64,000 bases of DNA from Elmis aenea (Eukaryota > Arthropoda > Insecta > Coleoptera > Elmidae), in the NCBI GenBank assembly GCA_947652605.1, contig OX393580.1, positions 17,690,159 to 17,754,158 on the forward strand. The letters are read 5' to 3'. The translations under genes were made by a program, and so were the position numbers. Every line of letters starts with the position of its first letter. The stretch's first letter is position 1. Positions 7,251-49,770 of the stretch are shown in pieces. The notes beneath the pieces are model-generated. The model saw only the letters and a list, made by a program, of their open reading frames with translations, did no database searches and was not told the DNA's origin.

Positions 7251-8828
7251 TTAACCCTTATAATACCACAATTTTTTTGTTACACGTAATACCACTCGGG
7301 TCATATTGACCCCAAAGCTCTTTACTGTATAAAACTATGATTATCAAGTAAAAACGTTTTTCCAAGCTGTTTATACATTGTTTAAACAACATGGTAATAT
7401 CAAATACTTAAAAATAGTTACTAGTAATTTATTTTAATTAATAATAACTATAAAAAGATCTAACAATTCTACGTTTATGTTACGTTTGCAGGCCGCACAC
7501 GCAATTGTCTGGTGATTATTAGAAATAAAGCGACTGCAATGGTTGCAAATATTTGAATGCTTTCTATCTAAATTTCTTGGACATTCACAAAATCTACCAC
7601 GTTTGAGTTTTTGCGACTTTTGTAACTACTGCCTCTTTGGAGTTGATGGTTTCTGTAACTCTGTTTCAGTAGCCGCTGGTTGTTTTCCTAGTTGCATAAG
7701 GAACTGTCGCCGTTTGTAGCAAATTTTTGCTTGACAATTTTTATTTAGGTAACACCATAATAATGTAGGCTTTAATATCTATAATATTATAAAAAGCTGC
7801 AACAGGCCATCTTCGTGTGTCTCTTTACAGTATTATGTTCGTACAAGCTAGTCCATGGTATCAACGCCTGATGTTGTTTTATTATAGTGAATTATTATTT
7901 GCGGTTTATTTTTGTCACCTTCAGAAACCTCTCCAATGTCGTGTGTTGTTGATAGTAACGTAACACTTTTTCCCTTTTATGGACAATAAGACAAGCAATG
8001 TTAGATTCTTTTCTTTCAAATCTCTTGCAAGTTGGAGACTCGTAAAAAAATATCGGTGGTCACATCTCTCCCTGATTTCTCTAACCCCTTATCATTTCTA
8101 AAACTACTCATTTGTCTTGATTACGTTCACGCTGGTCACCTGTTTTACCACTGTGAAATGAAAATTGTAAACGTATGCCTTTATGCCATATTTTCCAGGC
8201 TGTGATGATAAATACTGTTTGAAGGGAAACCTACCTCGGAAAGTTAACAGCTGTTCGTCAACCGTTATGTTCTTATAGGGAATGTAGAGTAGGTAGCTAT
8301 AATTCAAAAAGTGTTCGAATTGGTGCCAGTTTACTTGGGCTCGAATTTTTCTTCTTGCTTCAGCATTATCAAATCGCAGGCATTGAGAAATTGCAGTGAA
8401 TATGTTTCTACTAAAAGTTTTGTTGAATATACGACGTCCATCTTCAACATTCCACAATTTAGTAATCCCTTCGTTATGAGATTTATAAACTAATATCAAC
8501 AGACCAATGAAGCGTAAAAACTCCTTGGCAATCACAAGCAGACATTGAGATAAAATTATAACTCAGACAAGGCTAAACAACGTTCTAAAATCAATGCACC
8601 TTACAAACTATTAGGGGTCATTGGTGACCCCAGTGGTATTACGTGTAACTTAATTAAATTTTTAAAAACCGATACATCCTACAAAAATCGTATTGTACCA
8701 TCACATAATATATACTCTTTTGTGTAAAGTCAATTTTTTTTGAAATTTTAGGAAGCAGCATTTCAAAAATATACAGCTTCAAAGAGCGTTTGGGGTCTCC
8801 AGTGACCCCATGGTAGTATAAGGGTTAA
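7251..8828 (-). mobile_element. Decayed piggyBac element
   Basis: Flanked by TTAA at 7251-7254 and 8825-8828. Ends are cccttataatacca and tggtagtataaggg, near-perfect inverted repeats. Palindromic blocks of the type ggggtca..tgacccc sit near both ends (about 7292, 8611 and 8790). It carries a decayed transposase on the minus strand and is inserted in the older pogo-like element. Confidence 0.85.
7440..8535 (-). pseudogene. piggyBac transposase pseudogene
   Basis: The best-preserved frame (8104-8535, 143 codons) matches the DDE_Tnp_1_7 core. It contains L-W-N..G-R-R-I-F-N, then I-T-V-D-E-Q-L-L-T-F-R-G-R-F-P-F-K-Q-Y, which holds the first catalytic aspartate, and K-Y-G-I-K-A-Y. Downstream, in broken frames, 8090-7950 gives G-R-D-V-T-T-D..F-F and 7590-7490 gives a Cys-rich tail (C-x-x-C type), as expected for the C-terminal zinc region. 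Several frameshifts and stops make it inactive. Lengths fit a piggyBac protein of usual size. Confidence 0.8.
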
Positions 8829-20650: not shown

Positions 20651-23288
20651 TTAACTCTCTCATGCATGAATTTTCTTACACACATAAAAAATATTAAACC
20701 TTCATTTTTGGGCAACATTGGGTCAAAGAAACGACTTAAAACTTAATTTCCAAAAAAAAAACACTTTATTTGTCATAAATAAACTAAGTTCTCACATGGG
20801 TACATTATGTGATAATGATTACAAGCAATTTGTCCTCAAATGGGGACGGATAATTAAAAATATAAACAAGAACGTATAATAAACATAACAAAAAGTAAAT
20901 AATGATATTTATTATTATGCAATCATTTTTTAACACTTTTCTAAGAATGATAGTGTTCGAAACATTCGGGACATAGGGCAACTGTACACCGACCGCAAAA
21001 ATATCTGGTTTTACGTTTGCATTGTGTATTTTTGCAGCGAGATGCGTTTTTTGCATTATTTTTTTTAGGGTAGTGATTTCCTTTGTCTAACCTCTCTTCA
21101 GTGGGTACATAAATTCTTGGTCTTTTAATAGATTTTGGAGGAGTAGTGCTACGGGGACGGCCCGGATTTTTTTTCTTACTCAAACTTTCACCATGAAAAA
21201 TCAAAGCTGTTGCAATGCGACTTTTGAATTGGAGCAAATCAATAACGTCGTGATTGTTCCAGCGCCATATTAACCAACAATTTACTATCGTTACATTCAC
21301 GAAATGGTAAAAAATTCTCATATACCATCTTTTGTTTCTAGTGTAATTTCGATAAAGTGCCACTAACGAATCCATAAGATCGACACCGCCCATGTGATTA
21401 TTATAAATTTTTATAGCATAAGGTCTTGAAATGTTTATGTGCTCCTTGTGCTGTCTAGAAAATCTCCTAACTTCGTCAATAGGATAAATACCTGCATAGT
21501 TGGAGATAGTATGAACCAAATTGTTGTCAAACCATCTAATAATTGTTATACCATCATCCGATGTAACAACTGATGAACTTCCCCGCCCATTTGCTTTTAA
21601 ATCTTTTTCAAGTCTATTGCTTCTTACAGTACCCAAATAAAAAATTTGTTGCTTTGTTAATTCCAAAATTAACGGAATACTTGAAAATAAATTGTCTGCA
21701 AAAATTTTATAATTTTCTCCTTTTATATCATGACATAATCTGACCACTACATCCCCTGCAGCTCCTAAATCACTTATTTCTTCTCTATCACCAGAAGCAC
21801 CTTGAAATGCCTCAAAACAATATACGTAACCTGATGTTCCCGCCCTGACCCAAATTTTAAAGCCCCATTTTGTAGGCTTTTTGGGTAAATACTGTCTTAA
21901 AGATGATCTTCCTTTGAAGGGAATCATCATTTCATCAATACTCATAAATTCCTCGTGGTCTACAGCCGAATGATAAGTTTCATGTAAATGGTTTAGCACA
22001 GGTCGCAAACGGACCAATTTATCTCTATTGGTTTCCAATATTGTTGTGGAATCCATAAAATGTAGATATCTTCTAATTTCTTCATACCTATTACAAGTCA
22101 TGGCATCTGCGATAAATTGCATCCGTAATCCACCTTCTGACGACCAATAATGTCTTATTCTCGGGAACTTTATGTATGTCATCATTGTAGTGATTCCCAA
22201 AAAAATTTTAAGTTCGCCAAGAGTTAAATTAAAATTAAATTTATTGTTCTGATGGGCATATAAATTTGTTTGGTAAACAATTGTATCCAAAAACTCATCA
22301 GAAAAAAAATATTTAAAATAGTCAATAGGGGTGTTTCCCTGGATATTAATTTTGCGAGTTTTTTTACACGTTGGTATATTACCGGATAATGGATTATCTT
22401 TTTCAACACTCCATTTTATATCTTTTTTCTGGATCCTGAGTTCTCGTTTACATGTTGCTTTCTTTTTTGCAACTTTTTTTGGGCAATCTGCTTTGGTGTT
22501 TTTTTTGTTTTTTGGACTTTGAGTAAACAATAAGAGCTGTTTTTCGTCTTCTGAATCACTAAAATAGCTATCAGTGGATTCGTCTACCCTAAAATTTAAA
22601 TGACTTTCATCGGAATCTATCTCTAGACCATCTTCAGAACAGTTTGCTAGATCTTCCAACTCTTTTTCACTTAGTGGACGTTTTCTAAAACTCCAAGAAG
22701 ATCTAGTACTTATATTGTGTTCTTTTTTATCATTCGTAATTTCCAAAGTTTCTTTTGTTACTGCTTCCGTCATTTTTATCTAAAGATTTAAAAAAAAAAC
22801 GCATAATTTAATTTATAAGATTTACAGTTTGCCTAATGAATTTAATAATAATGACCAAAACTAAAACCAACACACAAATGTTATTCCAAATAGTACACAT
22901 TTAAGAACATTAGTATTTTTGGTTGAATACAAAATTTGTTTAAATTTTTAGGCTTTAAAATAGTGCTATTTGATTACTTAACTATTATTTTACATAAAAA
23001 TAATTTTTATTACCTTACTTAGTTTGTTTTTTTTCCTGTACTTAATAAAACAAGAAGGCGCTGCACATGCCACACTAATAAACTGTCACTCGTCGCAGAT
23101 TTACATAGAGTTCTGCATTTAAACTAACAATATTCTTAATACTGCCATCTAACATGTTCAGATAATATTAAAAACAGTCTCATATGAGGACATTATGCAC
23201 ATAGATTTAGAAAAAAAAAAGCTGCAACTGTGAAATTTAATTTTGAATTAATGTCCTCGTCCATGGACGCCATGCATGAGAGGGTTAA
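20651..23288 (-). mobile_element. Complete piggyBac transposon
   Basis: TTAA duplications at 20651-20654 and 23285-23288. Ends ctctctcatgcatga and tcatgcatgagaggg are inverted repeats with one mismatch. Further gtcctc/gaggac palindromic blocks lie near both ends (about 20833, 23184, 23255). It encodes an uninterrupted 610-aa transposase, so both parts needed for self-mobilisation appear present. Element length without duplications is 2,630 bp. Confidence 0.92.
20941..22773 (-). CDS. piggyBac transposase, intact
   Basis: A 610-residue open frame of the DDE_Tnp_1_7 family, which excises and inserts the element at TTAA by a DDD-type hydrolysis and strand-transfer reaction in the nucleus. Visible parts in order: acidic Ser/Asp/Glu N-terminus (about 35-80), Lys-rich possible nuclear-localisation segment (about 85-120), the catalytic core, and a Cys/His-rich C-terminal zinc region (about 575-610: C-K-N-T-Q-C..F-C-G-R-C..C-P-E-C..H-Y-H). 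The three expected aspartates are present: S-I-D-E-M-M-I-P-F near 279, F-A-D-N-L-F near 360, G-G-V-D-L-M-D near 464. The ATG at 22771-22773 opens a full-length family protein. No frameshift or stop; flanked by matching terminal repeats, so it may be active or recently active. Confidence 0.93.
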   Translation of the reverse strand: MTEAVTKETLEITNDKKEHNISTRSSWSFRKRPLSEKELEDLANCSEDGLEIDSDESHLNFRVDESTDSYFSDSEDEKQLLLFTQSPKNKKNTKADCPKKVAKKKATCKRELRIQKKDIKWSVEKDNPLSGNIPTCKKTRKINIQGNTPIDYFKYFFSDEFLDTIVYQTNLYAHQNNKFNFNLTLGELKIFLGITTMMTYIKFPRIRHYWSSEGGLRMQFIADAMTCNRYEEIRRYLHFMDSTTILETNRDKLVRLRPVLNHLHETYHSAVDHEEFMSIDEMMIPFKGRSSLRQYLPKKPTKWGFKIWVRAGTSGYVYCFEAFQGASGDREEISDLGAAGDVVVRLCHDIKGENYKIFADNLFSSIPLILELTKQQIFYLGTVRSNRLEKDLKANGRGSSSVVTSDDGITIIRWFDNNLVHTISNYAGIYPIDEVRRFSRQHKEHINISRPYAIKIYNNHMGGVDLMDSLVALYRNYTRNKRWYMRIFYHFVNVTIVNCWLIWRWNNHDVIDLLQFKSRIATALIFHGESLSKKKNPGRPRSTTPPKSIKRPRIYVPTEERLDKGNHYPKKNNAKNASRCKNTQCKRKTRYFCGRCTVALCPECFEHYHS

Positions 23289-24071
23289 GTCAAGATAGAG
23301 AAACAGTGAAATTACCAAAAACGTACAGTTTTTTAGGACAAACTCAGAACCGTTTTCAATAATATTCTATCAAGTCCGGTTTTTGAGTTATTAAGGTAAC
23401 TGTTTTTTTTTTTGTTATATTTGTAATGTGTCATATCTCCCTTATTGTTTTAAATATCAAAAATGTTTATGAAGCCTATTTTTAGATATTTCTATGTAGA
23501 TTTTGATAGAACTTAAAAAAAATATTTTACCGTCGCCGTTAAACAGTTATGGCACAAACTCACCTTTTTTAAATAAAAGCTATAGTTGGCTGTGACCTAT
23601 TTAAATTCCTTATTTTATTCTCTTCAAGTGTTTGTATTAATACGCCAGATTTTACGGGAAATAAAAGCAGAAATGGGATTCATTAAAAATATGTATTTGA
23701 TAACATATTTTTCACATTAATATGGTTACTATAAAATTATAACAGGTTCATCTTTCACATTTAAGATTTAACAGCCCTAATATACGATTACAGTAGGTAT
23801 TATATTACTTTTAGTAAAATACAAAATACAATGGAAGTCGCTTATAACGCGGGTCGGATACAACGATATTATTACATTTTTTTCATTATTTAATAAACAT
23901 ACGAAAATAAACTCTGTTTACCATTATAAAATACACTTAAGAACGAAAAAAAAAAACTGGCTTTCACTGTAACAAATATATACTCATTTCGTTTTCTTTT
24001 AATGAAAAACGGTTTTAAATAATAGCGACTCAGGAGTCGGCAGTTTTTTTTTTGCCGACTCCCGATCCCCG

Positions 24072-25264: not shown

Positions 25265-25266
25265 TA

Positions 25267-25590
25267 CACTGATAAAAATAGTTGTGTAAAATTACAGTAC
25301 TTTACGTTGGCGCTCATATGACCAACGTAAAGTGCTGTAAAATTACATAACGTCGTGTAAATTTTAATTTACACAATATATTATGTAAAATTACATAGTA
25401 TTATCGCGCAACAGTATGTACTTTTACTATGTAAATTTCCCTTATTTGTACTGTTTTCGCCGCTTACATAGTAAAATCACATAGTAATATCGCGTAACAC
25501 AGTATTTTTACTATGTAAATTTCCCTTATTTGAACTGTTCTCGCCGCTTACATAGTAAAATTACATAGGAATAATTAAATGTAATTCTTG
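25267..25590. repeat. EnSpm left end: subterminal and tandem repeats
   Basis: After the terminal repeat comes a hairpin, agtactttacgttgg and ccaacgtaaagtgct (25302-25343). Two tandem copies of about 95 bp follow (about 25420-25515 and 25510-25575), sharing ttactatgtaaatttccctt and cgccgcttacatagtaaaa. These are probable transposase-binding arrays. Confidence 0.7.
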
Positions 25591-25670
25591 ATTGCATTCA
25601 GGGAGAAAAAAAAATGTATACTGCTAAAATTATTTAATGCTGTATTGAAATACAAAATGTATAATATATA

Positions 25671-26615
25671 CAGGGTGTAACTGAAATCAGGCTCACCTTC
25701 TCTTTTTTCTTGTTTTCATTTAAGACAAATGAAATTTTAGACATATATGTGCAAAAAAACAGATTAATTGAACATGTGTACACCATTGTTTCACTTCCGG
25801 TTTTGCCGGAAATGACCACAATTTTTATTGAAAATGGAACACACTGTATATTTTAACATTTTTGAAAAAAGGATGCAATTTTGAATAGAACTGCATTATA
25901 TTAGATAGTATTTACAACCTCCAATATTTTTTAGGCTAATTTTTTATTTTTTTATTGACCTGCATACAATGTATTTTATTGTTTTAACAAATGTCGGAAA
26001 AAGGTTTTTGCAAATTTGAATAAACATTTAGCTTATTTTAATCAGCTTTAAAGGCTGCGAAATCAGTTTTTTGACAGTCCATTTTTTTTAATGGAACAGT
26101 AGTGGCTTATGGGGTTATTTTAATAAAGCATTTTTGGACGAATTCAGTAATAACAATATCTTGGTAACATGCTCTATTTAAATAACCGCATGAGCCACCA
26201 TCGTTCCATAAAAAAATTGTCAAAAAAAAAACTGATTGCGCAACCTTTAAAGCTGTTTAAGTAACATTACTATTAATGAAAATTTCCAAAAATACTTTTC
26301 GGGCACTTGCTGATACAATAAAATAGGATATACATAAACAGGTCACGGCACACTTAAAACAAATTATTTTTGCCAAAAAATTATTTGGAGTTATAAAAAT
26401 TAATAAAAAATGTGCTGTATTCAAAACTGCTTCGTCTTCACAAAATAAAAAAATATACAGGATGTTCCATTCAAAATAACCAAGTTCCGGCGAAACCGGA
26501 AGTGAAGTAATAGGGCGCATTTGTTCAAATAATCTGAATATTTGTACATATCATATGTCTTAAAACCAAAACTAAAGAATACAAATGGGTTGAGCTTGAT
26601 TTCAGTTACACCTGG
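25671..26615. mobile_element. Long-palindrome MITE inside EnSpm element
   Basis: TA flanks (25669-25670, 26616-26617); ends cagggtgtaactgaaatca and tgatttcagttacacctgg. Each arm is itself bounded by a second end (gaacacactgta at about 25841-25852, tacaggatgttcc at 26457). The centre (26040-26265) is another inverted repeat (aaatcagtttttt..tggcttatgg against ccgcatgagcca..aaaactgatt). It lies beyond the 3' end of the accessory gene. Confidence 0.8.
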
Positions 26616-26735
26616 TATATATATATATATATACATACACATAAATAAAGTAAACATAAATAAAATGAACACAAATAAAGTACACATCCGTAAAAAACAC
26701 ATTAATAAAGTACGCATAAGAATAATACACTAAAA
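26616..26735. repeat. TA microsatellite and short tandem repeat
   Basis: A (TA)n run at 26616-26632, then about six imperfect copies of acataaataaagt-like units to 26735. The open frames through it on both strands are low-complexity artefacts. Confidence 0.7.
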
Positions 26736-26827
26736 TATAAATATATACTTACAATAAAAACTAAGATACTAATTATTGTTCATAAAAAAGTTACACCAAA
26801 AAAATACACAAAACTCTGACGCAGAAA

Positions 26828-28580
26828 CTATACATTGTTTTTAAATTTGTTCATAAAATTAAAAATCCTTTTTTTTATTGCTGAGCCATTCTTCGATTTT
26901 GATCCGGTATCAGGATGAATTTTCAGAAACATTCTTTGAAGTAATTCCAATGTTGCCTCAAATGTTTTTGGGTATTTTATGTTCAAAATAAAGAAAAAGG
27001 AAAACGCCACCTTCAAAGCTTCTTTAAAAGTTTTGTAGCCTTCGGGATCAATATCCATCCGCTCAATATACACATAAAAAATTGAATCTAAAAGTGATTT
27101 CAGTTTTAGTATTATAGACAATTTTGTTTTTATTTAAGTAAATTTGCCAATGAGTAAAGTAAAAAGCACTGACAATGCAAAATATATATACAAACTGAAT
27201 TAAATTGATTATTTTAAAATCATTATGCAAAAAACACATGAAAACTGCTTACCAATTTGTATTATGGTAGGAGATAGCTGAATATTATCCACATTAATTT
27301 CAGAAACATCCTGCAAATATTCGTGATTAAAATAAAGAATGAATTACTTTTAAATGCTGTTACCTTGAAATTCAAGAAGAAGTCCTCAAAAGTTTCCTTA
27401 AAATAAAAACCCAATTGTTTTAAACAATTTATTTCTATACATGAAACATCTTTATTGATCTCGAGTTTTAATTTTTGGTTTGTAAATTTTATTATGTTTT
27501 CGGCTGTTTCTGAGAAATTGTCTAACAAATTAATGTCAGAATTCGTTAATTTACTAAAATGCCAAAATATAGCATTTTTTGAAAAAAGAATAGGCCAATC
27601 TTCTTTAATTTTTTGAACTGTAGGTAGGTTTTCTTCTACGTTCAAATATTTCCTTATATTACAGTATGTATTTTCCAAGACATCAATAAAATTTGGGTCT
27701 GTACTTTTGATAAGTTTCGCATCTTCGTTAGTAGTAGTAGAATCAGTAAAATCGGGATTCCAGTTCAAACAGCCGGCTCTAGCACTCACAAATTGTTTTT
27801 TCGATCGAACTGGACATGGGTTGTTAGAGTTGGGTCGTCTCCGATTGGGACGATTTAAATAATTATTTCGATCTTGCAATTTGTTTACAAGAGAATGGGT
27901 GCCATCTCCAAGCACTATTCCATCATGATCAACGTCTCTGAATACTTTGGGGTATTTATCAATAATTTTTTTGGCCACATACTTAAATGCCTTCGTTGGA
28001 ATAATTTTTTTTGTTGATCTCATATCATTTACTGTTATTTGTGTAAGAAATGTTATAGTCACTTTATTTTTAATACCTCTTTCTAACTCATCAATTTGTT
28101 TTATATTTAGTTTTTCCCATGGTATTTGAAAGTTTGTCCACAAAAATTCAGTGTTGCAGTCCACACTGTATGCAACATCTACATTTTGATAGTCTTCTTG
28201 AATTTCCAATACAACGTTCTGATGTTCTATTTCATTTGACGAATTTGTTGTCGAGAGTGAAATGTTAGATAAAATTTCTGAAGACGACACCCATTTTTCA
28301 TCTTTTTCTAATAAAATAAATACTTCTGATTTTACATATTCTACTATGTCTTCTTCAACAGGGGTCCCGTTTGATTCTAATACCAGAGACGTTCCGTTGA
28401 TTTCCAACTTCATCGATGCTTAAAAACAATAACTTATTCTTAATAATGCACATTAGTAAATATTTCTTAATTTTTACCTTTTTGTATTAAGCTTTCATAC
28501 GGCTGTTCTTTTTCAGCATCAATTAAAATAAAAGTTTTTTTGTCCCTCCTTGCGGACCACACTGTATACAATGTTTTCAT
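26828..28580 (-). CDS. EnSpm accessory protein: CIDE-N-like plus SAMD3-like, four exons
   Basis: I assembled four exons on the minus strand with GT-AG borders and preserved frame: 28580-28478, 28418-27364, 27310-27253, 27087-26828 (introns 59, 53 and 165 nt; 491 aa). Residues about 3-76 look like a CIDE-N domain: Y-E-S-L-I-Q-K-A, then T-S-L-V-L-E-S-N-G-T-P-V-E-E-D, F-I-L-L and E-K-W at the expected spacing. CIDE-N is the homotypic-interaction domain of DFF40/DFF45, CIDE proteins and fly DREPs. The rest resembles uncharacterised SAMD3-like proteins: K-Y-P-K-V-F-R-D near 190, a basic R-P-N-R-R-R-P segment near 227, D-W-P-I-L-F near 308, and a C-terminal K-Y-P-K-T-F..L-Q-R-M-F-L-K-I-H-P. The first short exon is needed to complete the CIDE-N fold. 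It lies downstream of the transposase on the same strand. Its job is unknown; protein-protein assembly is a guess. Confidence 0.72.
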
Positions 28581-28823
28581 TTTCTTAAATTGCTGTGCGT
28601 TTACAATTTACAAACACATATATTTATAAAAAATAATCTATGACAGTAGTAATTATACAGTAATGAAAAATCCTGTTGGTAATATTTTAAAATAAACTAT
28701 ACAGTGCTGATATGGCTTTCATGATATTCTCTTAAAAAGGTTTAAATTTAAACACCAACATTTCTAGGAGTAATATGACTTTGTATGTACATCATACCAC
28801 AAAATGTTATTTTAAAGAATTAA

Positions 28824-28981
28824 AAGGTCCACACACACCGGCGCGATCTCGACGCGGCCGCGGCCGCGGGCGCGATCACTATGATTGGTATCAATGGTAA
28901 CCATGTTACTTACTTACGTAACCAGGTCACTAATTATCGTGACCGCGGCCGCGTCAAGATCGCGCCGGTGTGAGTTGACCC
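28824..28981. mobile_element. GC-rich Harbinger-type MITE, copy 1
   Basis: TAA flanks (28821-28823, 28982-28984). The 158-bp body is a near-perfect palindrome, with arms caccggcgcgatctcgacgc and gcgtcaagatcgcgccggtg, containing gcggccgcgg runs. A second copy is at 61679-61824. 3-bp TAA duplications and gggtc-type ends suggest PIF/Harbinger. It sits between the two EnSpm genes. Confidence 0.78.
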
Positions 28982-29024
28982 TAAATCTATCGAAAGAAAA
29001 CCAAACAGCAAAGTTTTTCTTTCT

Positions 29025-31682
29025 TTACAGTTTTTCGAAAGGGGCTGATTTAAAATAAAACACATTAGTCAACTCAATTTTCTTAAACAAAATTGGTTCA
29101 GTACATATTATTTCTTCGAATGCTACACAGACATCAAAATCATTTTGATCAATTTTATCAAAGTAAAAAACTTCGTCGTACAAACCAGTACACCCATTAT
29201 ACGTTACTTTAACCCTTTTTCCAACAAAATAAACATCTGTCAGTTCTTTTCCAACAAGAATATATTTAATTTTGCATAAATTGTAATAACCATATGAATC
29301 TTTTTCATAACAAATAATCATATCTTTTTTGTAGGATATTCCTCTATGCGTTACTTCTTCTGCAACAAAATTGTAGTTTGATAAATCATACTTACGTGTA
29401 AGTAACTTCAAAAATTCCTGGGAATAATTATTAATATTAAACAGATCTAAACAATCAGATTTTACCTTGTTACAATAAAGACTACCGTATTCGGTATTTA
29501 AGGCTTGTAAAAACTGATGTTTTGTAGTTAATGACTGTAATACATTTTTATAATTCGGTGAATGGCGCATGTGATTTTTAAAAAATCTATGTTTACTTTC
29601 GAATCTTAATGTCCACAAATGTCTTAACGGGCCAAACGTTTGAATTAAGTATGGATAATGTAAAATGTAATGATGTTTTGGTCTCAAGTTAACATTTGGA
29701 AAAAGATTTTGCCTAATTTCTACGTATTCGTACAATAAACATTTTAAAACTGCTATTTGATCAATAGATAACTTAAATGCCATTAAAATGTTAACCATTT
29801 TTCTAAGACATAAAACCATTTCCCAAATTTCACAGCCTTCAAGGCAATCTAGTTTTTTGTATAACACGAAAGGAAAAACATTTAAAATGTATAATATGTC
29901 TGATGCTGTTCCAATTAGCTTTTCTCCCTTCTTTATCTTTGCAATTTTGTGCTTTTTTTCATTAGGCAATGAAAAATTGCTAAATAATAAATTTAAATAT
30001 TCGTACGTTACTATTTTTTTTTTGACAAAATAATTTATGCACAACATTAAATCGTGAGGAACAATACCTTCAAACAAGTCGTGTGCTATGCAGGGTGGTA
30101 ATCCCGGAGAACAAACATGAAAATATTGTAGCTCGTTCAGTGGTGATTTAAATTTAGTACCTTTGTAGGGATTTTGTACCATTACCGCTATATTCACATC
30201 TTGATCATACGATTTTTTAGTTCTTAGTTGTGAGTAGGAGTGTGCATTAGTAAAATTGTTTATTTCACAATAACGACAAAAATATGAATTTATTTTAAAA
30301 GTTTCTGTGAATCCTCCGATTTGATGACTGCCTAAATTATCTCCCACGACTACAGCAACCGTTCCTTTTGCAATTAAAGTATTATCAACTCTTATTCCTT
30401 CTACTTCAAGCTTTTTTAGGTCTCTTATTAAAATTTTAAGAATAGCTGAAAATCCGAAATGTTTTGTTTGCTTTTCGTAACATAGTGCTACTAAATAAAT
30501 TTGTTCGACCCGCGTCCTATTCCAAGGTAAAACATTGGCAAGAGTCATGTAGATGCCTACTAATTTATGTTTTAGTCTACACGAACCCAACGGATTGCAA
30601 ATTTCAAATGCATCTTGGTATAAAATTATACTAAGTGCATTCATATTATTGTGAAAAAATGGGTTGCTTTTATAACAAGAGCCGTCAAAAAAATTTTCAT
30701 ATACACCTTCAACTGACGTAAACGGAGAAAAATATTGTTGAACAATATTTTTATCCTGAAGAAGTAGTTTCAAGGTTTTTAACACAGGCACATAATAAAA
30801 AAAACTATTTTTGTTTCCAATGTTACCCACGCTAACTTTTACAGGCTCAATAAAACTAACATTTTCTTTATAATATTTTTTTCGCAAATAGGTTGAACGT
30901 AGAACTCCTGTTTCTGAATTGTGCGAGTTTTGAAATAAACTTTTGTATTCATTATTTAATTTTGAAACGTCTACATGACTGTTGGCCAACTGTAATAAAA
31001 TATACTCTTTGTTCAAATTTTCCAAATCCGAGAACCCTTCAATAATAGTTTTAAGCGAATTATCGGAAACAAAATATTTTGACTGTAACGTTAAGTACAT
31101 AGTAGAAAACAATTTTAAACTTAACTTTTCGATCTTTTCAGCATTTTCATGTTTTTCTTTTACTGATATAAATGTGTTATTAGCAAACTCGAAAGGATTC
31201 ATATCGTCGTTGTTTGATGTCGTGAAGTCAATATTACTTATTACGCCATTATCAGTACTTCCATCAATATTACTTACTGTATCGTCAAAATGTTTTCTAT
31301 TAACGTGTGATCTTAAGCTGTTAATATTTTGGAACACTGTATTAGTTTTACAGTTATCTAAAGGACATTTCATCGGTATTCCGTTTCTTATATGTTTACA
31401 AATATGAGCCATAAACAATTTTTTAGAATTGATGCTACGTTGGCAATTTGCTAAAGTACAGACAAATAATGTACATTTCTTTTTATTGAGGTGTAATCTG
31501 TATATGTGTTGTTTAAATCCAACATATGTTTTAAAAACGATATTGCAATTAGCATACACACAGTAAAATTCAGCCCCTTTCCAATTACGATGTAAGTATT
31601 GGTGAATTTCGTATTTTCGCATAGTACAACATCGAAAATTACAAAGCTTACAACTAAACATTATTATTATTATTATTACCAA
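29025..31682 (-). CDS. CMC/EnSpm transposase with C2H2 fingers
   Basis: An uninterrupted 885-codon frame. The first codons are a low-complexity Val-Ile run; the Met at residue 8 (M-F-S-C-K-L-C) is the likelier start. N-terminal C2H2-type fingers occupy about residues 11-130 (C-K-L-C..H, F-Y-C-V-Y-A-N-C..H-I-Y-R-L-H, F-V-C-T-L-A-N-C.., M-K-C-P-L-D-N-C..H-V-N-R-K-H). The core carries motifs of animal EnSpm-type transposases: Y-Q-D-A-F-E-I-C-N-P-L-G-S near 355, V-V-G-D-N-L-G-S-H near 446, C-R-Y-C near 480, and P-P-C-I-A-H-D-L-F-E-G near 530. The conserved Asp residues in the first two are candidate catalytic residues. The enzyme would cut and rejoin the element ends. It sits at the 5' end of the transposon next to the right terminus, which may hold the promoter. 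No break seen. Confidence 0.85.
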   Translation of the reverse strand: MVIIIIIMFSCKLCNFRCCTMRKYEIHQYLHRNWKGAEFYCVYANCNIVFKTYVGFKQHIYRLHLNKKKCTLFVCTLANCQRSINSKKLFMAHICKHIRNGIPMKCPLDNCKTNTVFQNINSLRSHVNRKHFDDTVSNIDGSTDNGVISNIDFTTSNNDDMNPFEFANNTFISVKEKHENAEKIEKLSLKLFSTMYLTLQSKYFVSDNSLKTIIEGFSDLENLNKEYILLQLANSHVDVSKLNNEYKSLFQNSHNSETGVLRSTYLRKKYYKENVSFIEPVKVSVGNIGNKNSFFYYVPVLKTLKLLLQDKNIVQQYFSPFTSVEGVYENFFDGSCYKSNPFFHNNMNALSIILYQDAFEICNPLGSCRLKHKLVGIYMTLANVLPWNRTRVEQIYLVALCYEKQTKHFGFSAILKILIRDLKKLEVEGIRVDNTLIAKGTVAVVVGDNLGSHQIGGFTETFKINSYFCRYCEINNFTNAHSYSQLRTKKSYDQDVNIAVMVQNPYKGTKFKSPLNELQYFHVCSPGLPPCIAHDLFEGIVPHDLMLCINYFVKKKIVTYEYLNLLFSNFSLPNEKKHKIAKIKKGEKLIGTASDILYILNVFPFVLYKKLDCLEGCEIWEMVLCLRKMVNILMAFKLSIDQIAVLKCLLYEYVEIRQNLFPNVNLRPKHHYILHYPYLIQTFGPLRHLWTLRFESKHRFFKNHMRHSPNYKNVLQSLTTKHQFLQALNTEYGSLYCNKVKSDCLDLFNINNYSQEFLKLLTRKYDLSNYNFVAEEVTHRGISYKKDMIICYEKDSYGYYNLCKIKYILVGKELTDVYFVGKRVKVTYNGCTGLYDEVFYFDKIDQNDFDVCVAFEEIICTEPILFKKIELTNVFYFKSAPFEKL

Positions 31683-31849
31683 CAGTATTTTGCATACTTA
31701 CAAGCAATTTTAACAAAAATTTACAGACACTGTAGTTTACATGCGGCACACACAGCAATTTTAGGTTATGTGTGTTAGTTTCGCGATGGTTTCGCGGTAT
31801 TAAAGCGGTTTGCGCAGACTCGCTTCCTTTGCTACATCGTGTACTCTTG

Positions 31850-32025
31850 GCTTTACATAATATATACTGTAAAAGTACATTGTAAAAGCGAAACATGCCT
31901 CCTGTACTGTAATTATACATTCTTTTAATTCATTACAGTCGAAATACTGTAAATAATATTTTACATGATATGTACTGTAATATTTACAGTATATATTATG
32001 TAAAACTACTATCATTTTTATCAGT
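31850..32025. repeat. EnSpm right end and subterminal repeats
   Basis: Repeated tactgtaa/ttacagta motifs (about eight in 170 bp) leading to the terminal actatcatttttatcagtg. This is the upstream end relative to the transposase gene, so promoter and binding sites probably overlap here. Confidence 0.65.
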
Positions 32026-32027
32026 GT

Positions 32028-32475
32028 ATATGTACCTATACAAATATGCGTGTTTTAAGGCGGCTCTGAAAATAAAAAATATTTTAGACTAGCTAACTTG
32101 ATTGATGGCAACGTACTCCGAAGTGATGTGAAAGTGGCAAAATGTCGTCTTTTGGGAAGATATCATAAATTTTGCTACGCGCTCGTCTCTTTAATGGCTG
32201 TAGGACGTTACGTGTTTTTAAGAGATATCCGCACCTCCTTTAGCATGTCCGAAAGTTCTTTAGTTTTCCGCTTTTTAGATAAGAGCACTTTTTCAATTTT
32301 TGATAAAAATCTTAAGCCATTTTTTTTTACTTTAAAGAGTATAGTCTTTACAATTTTATTATTTTTTATGAAAATATATTTACTTATAATTTCAACGATT
32401 TTCGAAGGTAAAAAGTTATTGGATGTGTTAATAACGTGCGTTTACAGTTTTTTAACTCCTTTATGTACACGCTCG
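32028..32475. other. No gene seen
   Basis: A 126-codon frame (32098-32478) runs through it but is Phe/Leu/Ser-rich without a recognisable domain; I do not call it a gene. Confidence 0.4.
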
Positions 32476-32655: not shown

Positions 32656-32762
32656 GTCAGTGATGGGGTGGGGGGAGGCAGTCAGCAAAAAAATAACGGA
32701 ATGCCGACTCTCGACTCCTGAGTCGATATTTTTTAACCGATTCCGACTTCCGACTCCCTTCA
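32656..32762. mobile_element. hAT end fragment, GACTCC family
   Basis: cagtgatggggtggggg followed by gactctcgactcctgagtcg and gattccgacttccgactccc resembles the terminal parts of the hAT MITE at 38091. No opposite end found; truncated. Confidence 0.4.
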
Positions 32763-33383
32763 TTAAAAGAAAACGTCATTAGAATATATTTACTACAGTA
32801 AAGCCGTGTTTTTTCTTTCCTAAGTGAATTTTATAATAGTGAACAGAGTTTATTTTCTTATGCTTTCTAAATAATGAAAAAAGTTTAAAAAAAACTGAAT
32901 CCTTTGGAAAACCTATTTCCTTGTCTATGTATGTCTGCTTAGAAGAAATCTTCCAAGTGTTCAAAGTATGTACCTATGATAAAAGAATATGAAAAGAATG
33001 TTTCTTATAAATAATAGAAATAAGATAGATTTTTGATGACATTGTGATGAGGGTCCCAGAAGTATCTATTTTAGTAAGTGTCTTTAAAAAAATTATACTC
33101 TAGCAGCGGTTCGTTTCTTATTATACAATTGTATGCATATACAAATTTTAAATTTTCTTACACGATTCATTAAATAAGTAAATTTGTATAACAATGAACA
33201 TATTATTGTACAAAAAATAATAAAATTCGCCAAAGTAGATAGTCACTTTTTGGGACACTCTGCATTTTGGAAATATTTGAAAATCAGTGGAACCGAAAAA
33301 ACAATTATTTTTTATTTTTTTAGTTCTCATGTCCCTATTTTTAGTAGTTAACAATCTGGTCACAATCATTTACCATAACTTCA
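32763..33383. other. No gene seen
   Basis: AT-rich. A gggacactctgcat block near 33252 resembles a Tc1-type MITE end, but I found no partner. Confidence 0.45.
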
Positions 33384-37759: not shown

Positions 37760-38090
37760 TAATAAATAAAAATGGTGTGCACCGCTCATTAGAAAACTAA
37801 AAGTTGCCTTTGACATCTTAAAAACTAATCAGTCAATTTCGACAGCGGAAGTGTTTAAGACCTTTGTCTAAACAAACTATGTTGATTAAATTTTTGATTT
37901 TTACTCTCCGTAAGCAAAAGTTATGAATAAAGTTTTTTTACTGAACCTTTCAGGATATTTCAGGACATTCAGAAACTGGGTATAATATGCATATTTTTAA
38001 TTTGGTTTTCTACCAAACACGAAAAGTACTGATTTGGTCATTTAACAATCCTTCCATATGCCCCAAATCCTATTACTCTCCACATTTATT
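37760..38090. other. No gene seen
   Basis: AT-rich spacer between the mariner foldback and the hAT MITE. Confidence 0.45.
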
Positions 38091-38637
38091 CAGGGATGAA
38101 GGGGAGTCTGCAGAAAAAGACTCCGACTCCAACTCCTGAGTCGGTATTTTTTTAAACCGACTCCGACTCCCCACTCGGACTCCGACTCCGACTCCCCACT
38201 CCGACTCCGACTCCAACTCCCAACTCCGACTCCGACTCCAGACTTCGACTCCCACCTCCCGACTCCGACTCCCGACTCCGACTCCCGACTCCGACTCCCG
38301 ACTTCCGACTCCGACTCCCGACTCCCGACTCCCGACTCCCGACTCCCGACTCCCGACTCCCGACTCCCGACTCCCGACTCCCGACTCCCGACTCCCGACT
38401 CCCGACTTCGACTCCCGACTCCTACCCGACTCCCCCGACAAACTCCCGACTCAGACTCCTGACGCTGACTCCCGACTCCGACCCGACTCCCGACTCCGAC
38501 TCCGACTCCCGACTCCCGCATCCGACTACCGACTCCGACTCCCGACTCCTGACTCCCGATTCCCGACTCCCGACTCCCGACTCCCGATTCCCGACTTCCG
38601 ACTTCCGACTGACTCCTACTTCGACTCCCCATCGCTG
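38091..38637. mobile_element. hAT MITE expanded by GACTCC/GACTCCC repeats
   Basis: 8-bp target duplication with one change (catttatt 38083-38090, catctatt 38638-38645). Ends cagggatg and catcgctg, with ggggagt/actcccc just inside (cagggatgaaggggagt against actccccatcgctg). Nearly the whole body is gactcc and gactccc hexamer/heptamer repeats. Long Ser/Arg/Glu/Val-rich open frames on the minus strand are a by-product of the repeat. Related ends at 20213, 24054 and 32656. Confidence 0.85.
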
Positions 38638-38736
38638 CATCTATTTTCAAAAAGATTTCCAAAAATATAAAATGCTGGTTTTATTGCACAACACAAATTT
38701 TTAAGAAAAAAATTCCCTATGAATGAATTTTTGCTC

Positions 38737-48711: not shown

Positions 48712-49770
48712 ATGCCGCGTTACACTTTGGAAAAACGTTTGCTAATTGTAAAGACCCATTACAAACATGGAGAAAATTTTACAGTAACAATTCGCAAGTT
48801 AAGAGATCATTTTGGTGTGAACAATCGTCCGTCAAGGTCGGCTGTTTAAAATTTAATTAAGAAATTTGAGCGGACGTTTTCACTGAAAGATGAGAAAAGC
48901 CTTGGCCGTGATTGCCCTGGAAGTGCGGCCAAAAACATCGCTGCCGTGAGTGTCAGTGTTACAGAACACCCAAACACCTCCATCCGTCATCGCGCCCAAG
49001 AATTAAACATCCACCGCAGTACTCTCCAACGAATTCTGAAGAATGCCTACAAAACCCAGTTGACACAAGAATTAAAACCAGCCGACCATGGACAGCGCAG
49101 AAACTTTGCCAACTGGATCTTGGAACAACAGCAAGTTGACGATGCATTTCCTAACAAAATCATTTTTAGTGATGATGCGCACTTTCACCTCAACGGCTAC
49201 GTCAATACACAGAATTCTCGAATCTGGGGAGCAGAAAATCCACTTGCCATTCCAGAACTACCGATGCATCCTGAAAAAGTGACAGTGTGGTGTGCCATGT
49301 GGGCAGGAAAGAACATCGGACCGTACTTTTCTGAAAATGATGAAAGGGCCTCTATGACTGTCAATAGTGATCGCTACCGTGGCATGTTGACAAACTTTTT
49401 TTGGCGTCAGTTAGATGGAGTGGACTTGAATGGAATGTGGTTTCAACAGGATGGCGCGACCTGTCACACCGCACGTGAAACAATGGCGTTATTGCAAACG
49501 AAGTTCCAGGGTCGTGTCGTCTCTCGTTTTGGAGACCAAAACTGGCCACCAAGGAGTTGCGATTTAACTCCCTTGGACTTCTTTCTCTGGAGTTTTTTGA
49601 AAAGTAAGGTCTATGATGTGAACCACCATCAGACGATTCAACAACCAAAAGAAGAAATCACACGTAAAATTCGTGAAATCCAGCCACCCTTGCTACAAAA
49701 CGTCTTCCAAAATTTCCTGTATCGAGTTCACATCTGCCAACAGAACCGTGGCGGACTTTTCACACCTTAA
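48712..49770 (+). pseudogene. Tc1/mariner-type transposase with one in-frame stop
   Basis: A 352-residue reading frame from the ATG at 48712 is broken only by a TAA at 48847-48849 (codon 46). An open 274-codon stretch begins at 48946. The N-terminus is an HTH region (L-E-K-R-L-L-I-V..H-F-G-V-N-N-R-P-S), then A-Q-E-L-N-I-H-R-S-T-L-Q-R-I-L, a second HTH. The DDE core is complete: I-I-F-S-D-D-A-H-F (first Asp), M-W-F-Q-Q-D-G-A-T-C-H-T-A (second), and C-D-L-T-P-L-D-F-F-L-W (third), with 36 residues between the last two acidic positions by my count. The third residue is Asp rather than Glu. Terminal repeats were not found. Length is normal for the superfamily. The single stop suggests fairly recent decay. 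Confidence 0.85.

Follow-up and report, generated by a model that had tools for sequence, protein, structure and literature searches.

In maize En/Spm, a CACTA transposon, two element-encoded proteins, TNPA and TNPD, are both required for transposition, and TNPA binds the subterminal repeats (PMC2613891 and PMC1636069, which, like all papers cited here by PMC number, are drawn on in excerpt). What is known of end pairing in CACTA elements comes mostly from plants, in which the TNPA-like proteins of different elements have little sequence in common (PMC2613891, PMC1636069). Animal elements of the TRC type (SmTRC1 and those of Tribolium and Aedes) belong with the Transposase_21 family and have 2-base-pair (bp) direct repeats at their ends, which are reported to begin CCC-; the excerpt of PMC1636069 makes no mention of a CIDE-N protein. 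CIDE-N domains, for their part, have been discussed in apoptosis and lipid metabolism (PMC6292858) and at synapses (PMC4229683). Here we describe a complete CACTA/EnSpm-type transposon of 6,760 bp, on the minus strand (25267-32026) of a 64,000-nucleotide stretch of the Elmis aenea genome (contig OX393580.1, 17,690,159 to 17,754,158; hereafter the window), whose accessory gene encodes a protein with a predicted N-terminal CIDE-N domain.

The element resembles maize En/Spm in having CACT- ends, short terminal inverted repeats, subterminal repeats, a transposase related to tnp2 and a second protein. However, its second protein has a CIDE-N domain and is encoded by a gene of its own, and we liken it to TNPA by proposed role rather than by sequence. 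The terminal inverted repeats are an exact match, CACTGATAAAAA at the 5' end (32015-32026, minus strand) and the same sequence on the plus strand at the 3' end (25267-25278). They start CACTG rather than the CACTA of En/Spm-type elements in all three copies described below, and in this they also differ from the CCC- ends of TRC-type elements. The dinucleotide TA borders both ends of each copy (32027-32028 and 25265-25266 in the window), whereas a 3-bp duplication is reported for soybean Tgmt; this TA may have arisen by target-site duplication, may be a fixed target or may belong to the element end. With the TA included, the terminal sequence TACACTGATAAAAA has just two occurrences in the window: 25265-25278 (plus) and 32015-32028 (minus). 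Repeated motifs follow inside both ends, among them TACTGTAA, TTACATA and TGTAAA. By k-mer counts the 5' subterminal region (31680-32014) repeats TACTGTAA (five times), TGTAAA and TTTACATA, while the 3' subterminal region (25279-25660) contains five TTACATAGTA motifs and an 84-bp tandem repeat (25385-25573, 2.2 copies).

The transposase is an 878-amino-acid protein encoded in a single open frame with its stop codon (29025-31661, minus strand). By eye, its N-terminus shows a C2H2-like pattern of cysteines and histidines, and alignment reveals invariant acidic residues and a CxxC motif. Homologues at E ≤ 0.001 numbered 447, of which 120 were listed. Of 28 transposases that were aligned, 15 matched PF02992 (Transposase_21, tnp2; best E, 1e-7) and two matched DUF4218; among the matches listed, relatives 33-44% identical to the window protein carry PF02992. 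The window transposase itself has no PF02992 match, even at E ≤ 10, and no DUF4218 match. Taking the PF02992-bearing relatives together with the CACT- termini and the repeats inside each end, we class the element by its sequence features as CACTA/EnSpm in the wide sense.

The host genome was searched with exon 2 of the accessory gene; counts from a search of this kind are lower bounds. At least three full-length copies at 99-100% identity were found, plus three weaker fragments on C2. The two further full-length copies (L010 and L011, each 6,759 bp) align to the window at 99.8% from 32028 to 25264 or 25265 and end there. Their sequences are the same, and 13 alignment columns separate them from the window copy (two in the transposase, five in accessory coding sequence and six in non-coding DNA). 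All three copies retain the intact 878-amino-acid transposase, the 491-amino-acid accessory frame and its three GT-AG pairs. Comparison of the six flanks of the three copies (1.0 to 2.0 kilobases each) with one another gave no match at E ≤ 1e-3, and hence the copies are separate insertions. The first-pass annotation of this DNA had assigned the accessory gene to a DNA transposon, and three near-identical copies with common ends bear this out: the gene lies inside the mobile unit. The element is compact and intact and has moved recently. As a side observation, the five accessory-gene differences (window positions 28389, 28388, 28280, 27469 and 27459) make up most of the seven coding differences, and six of the seven fall at codon position 1 or 2.

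The accessory gene comprises four exons on the minus strand. Exon 1 (28478-28580) would encode the first half of the CIDE-N domain, and exon 2 (27364-28418) the second half plus most of a conserved core; these are followed by exon 3 (27253-27310) and exon 4 (26828-27087), whose stop codon ends at 26828. Intron 1 (28419-28477) lies within the CIDE-N domain and is a 59-bp GT-AG intron with borders AAAG/GTAAAAAT and TTTTTAAG/CATC, in the frame predicted when exon 1 was originally joined to the sequence from 28418 on. With two further GT-AG introns, of 53 and 165 bp, the model yields a 491-amino-acid protein. As a check on exon 1, we built a hidden Markov model (HMM) from the corresponding part of 18 relatives. 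The window protein was left out, as were five relatives whose N-termini are missing or aberrant, and the search covered all 2,847 six-frame fragments at least 15 residues long. The frame containing exon 1 (28607-28470, minus strand) scored E = 1.5e-11, compared to 0.16 for the next-best fragment. The analogous HMM for the exon-2 part gave 1.9e-18, with the next-best fragment at 0.22. One caveat is that these tests are partly dependent: it was the joined model that retrieved the relatives, and the window row was included when they were aligned. Given the gap between 1.5e-11 and 0.16, exon 1 is, by this measure, not a chance frame. The contig open reading frames of relatives P0006, P0022, P0156 and P0161 start into the protein at a common A-S-x-K-L point, resembling an intron exit, and the Brassicogethes model P0154 has an insert at this same point. 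Intron 1 therefore seems to be old, its position conserved in the accessory family.

The CIDE-N domain (28288-28574, minus strand, interrupted by intron 1) covers approximately residues 3-78 of the protein. The first-pass annotation had recognized the domain and looked to a Pfam search of the 491-amino-acid model for support. Here the outcome was split: the model matches PF02017 over residues 28-77 (E = 6.9e-5) at 23.3 bits, 0.2 bits under the curated cut-off of 23.5, but most of the relatives in two scanned sets of ten exceed that cut-off. In the first ten relatives scanned, eight did so (best E, 7.6e-10), beetle P0002 fell below it (17.2 bits) and fish protein P0024 had no match. In the second ten, eight again scored over the cut-off, with P0154 below (20.4 bits) and P0157 unmatched. 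Across all 48 relatives, 26 matched CIDE-N at E ≤ 0.001, while a rough regular expression detected no CIDE-like strand motif in 15, several of which begin inside or after the domain. As a single sequence, the window model gave a weak match in the PDB (CIDE-3, E = 0.072); via the closest relative, the fold recovered was the ubiquitin-like one of CIDE-N. Since most relatives in these two sets score over the PF02017 cut-off, and in keeping with the fold and the conservation, the assignment of the N-terminus as a CIDE-N domain is confirmed at the level of sequence comparison. The protein resembles DFF40/CAD, DFF45/ICAD, DREP1-4 and CIDE-A/B/C in this N-terminal fold and, in most relatives, at four of six charged interface positions. 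It differs from them in its divergent sequence and in its unrelated C-terminal part, a conserved, mostly helical core of ∼350 residues with a basic stretch, NRPHKR...KK. The intron is another difference, as the domain lies in a single unbroken frame at three host CIDE-N loci.

There are hints that the two genes are paired elsewhere too. A database gene model from the ant Cyphomyrmex costatus (P0121) has a transposase of the same family running straight into a CIDE-N start, which suggests that the transposase and accessory genes are neighbours in the ant as well. Two pairs of short contigs with shared odd lengths (6,913 and 7,367 bases) appear in the match lists of both proteins, a hint but no proof of the same pairing. 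Relatives of the accessory protein and its CIDE-N domain occur in beetles and ants.

What might such a protein do? On balance, we favour the view that this second protein of the insect CACTA/EnSpm element is TNPA-like, with an end-binding core and CIDE-N as a self-assembly module. In the role that TNPA has in maize En/Spm, the core with its basic stretch would bind the TTACATA and TACTGTAA motifs close to either end; copies of the protein would join through CIDE-N, basic face to acidic face; and the joined copies would gather the transposase and the two element ends into a single complex. CIDE domains are described as associating through just such faces, and a single charge swap, K13D, as rendering DREP2 monomeric (PMC6292858). 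We placed six FSP27 interface residues on the accessory family by eye from the alignment. The R46 position is K in 18 of 21 sequences (counting P0160, whose N-terminus is aberrant), R55 is K in 19 of 21, D88 is D in 21 of 24, and E93 is D or E in all 24.

Several observations weigh against this reading. At the K56 position, none of 21 sequences has a basic residue, and at E87 just one of 24 is acidic whereas 14 have K or R. The R46 position is T in the window copy and in the Photinus relative and I in P0002, and D88 is N in all three, whereas an ant relative and a Coccinella relative have K and D at these positions. Thus, judging from the alignment, the family overall keeps most of both charged faces while the branch of the window copy may have changed them, and with its residues at these two positions the window copy may self-associate weakly or otherwise. 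The 7-mer excess common to both element ends is modest, being equalled by 26 of 1,000 random segment pairs, and for this reason the subterminal repeats are suggestive rather than overwhelming. Neither a DNA-binding fold nor any other known fold was recognized in the helical core. Finally, fish relative P0024 has the core and lacks a CIDE-N match, and so the domain may not be universal in the family. Separately, the reversed charge at the E87 position may reflect another partner or another geometry; an acid is likewise missing there from the three CIDE-N genes of the host.

A more specific version of the TNPA-like reading is that an insect CACTA lineage adopted the polymer module of apoptotic DNA fragmentation, with CIDE-CIDE assembly building the transposition complex on the element ends. 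We put this forward tentatively, as a possibility that is rather doubtful at present. If it is true, one fold organizes DNA cutting in both cell death and transposition.

A different role, which we regard as unlikely, is that CIDE-N serves as the dimerization tag of a protein that regulates transcription of the element, akin to the suppressor side of TNPA, and takes no direct part in cutting or joining. TNPA is described as repressing the unmethylated promoter and reactivating the methylated one (PMC1636069), and many of the repeats here are located at the 5' end of the element. This idea is less favoured only because repeats stand at both ends; nothing else separates it from the TNPA-like assembly role. 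It is improbable, in our estimation, that CIDE-N is instead aimed at the host, binding its CIDE-N proteins (DFF40/CAD, for example) to block or steer the DNA-damage and cell-death response that transposon cuts provoke. CIDE domains do bind across different proteins (PMC6292858), and three CIDE-N loci in the host genome score over the cut-off; adjacent to one of them is a DFF40 nuclease exon (PF09230, E = 7.2e-63). However, in the exon-1 part the transposon domain shares just 3/28, 7/29 and 5/28 identities with these three, so it is no close mimic, and a host-directed role leaves the long conserved core unexplained. Assembling the transposition complex is judged more likely than interacting with DNA-fragmentation factors of the host, the two functions at which the first-pass annotation had guessed. 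The weakest proposal, that the accessory gene is a host gene or chance neighbour whose resemblance to CIDE-N is coincidental, draws on the 0.2-bit shortfall of the window copy but is extremely improbable and already contradicted, as it needs the three copies to be assembly duplicates and yet their flanks are dissimilar.

Our search, made in the open-licence literature and not in repeat databases, found no earlier report of CIDE-N inside a transposon. In the excerpts seen, the search terms occur in the reference list only (PMC5245865) or nowhere in the main text (PMC12339004). Ten and seven CIDE-N domains are reported in two Hydra species, compared to one to three in five other cnidarians (PMC7642931); the excerpt of that paper groups the expanded domains with transposase and DNA-binding domains and does not place them in a transposon. 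The Hydra expansion may represent the same kind of element. The present locus puts CIDE-N in a mobile element with beetle and ant relatives, and an animal CACTA element whose second protein bears a recognizable, structurally understood assembly module would provide a testable handle on end pairing.

Other repeats lie within and around the element. Between the two genes is a GC-rich, 155-bp foldback element (28826-28980), present in the three young copies. It is absent from an older, broken copy on C2 (L012), in which the end of the transposase adjoins exon 1. A second foldback element of ∼960 bp, with inverted arms and TATATA ends, is nested in the 3' part (25664-26622). Inverted arms at 23869-24044 and 32707-32891, 80-87% matching and 8.7-8.9 kilobases apart, stand on both sides of the CACTA element; these may be two copies of a different repeat, or the CACTA element may have inserted into an older one. 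Elsewhere in the window, 20941-22779 (minus strand) is an unbroken 612-amino-acid transposase frame with PF13843 at 4.8e-81, which we take to be of the piggyBac type, and a second PF13843 fragment is found at 8104-8562. A 306-amino-acid frame at 48850-49770 (plus strand) has no Pfam match at E ≤ 0.001 and presumably resembles a mariner transposase. Repetitive frames (GSRESGV and others) are open on both strands at 38073-38704, a region that is probably no gene but a simple-sequence array.
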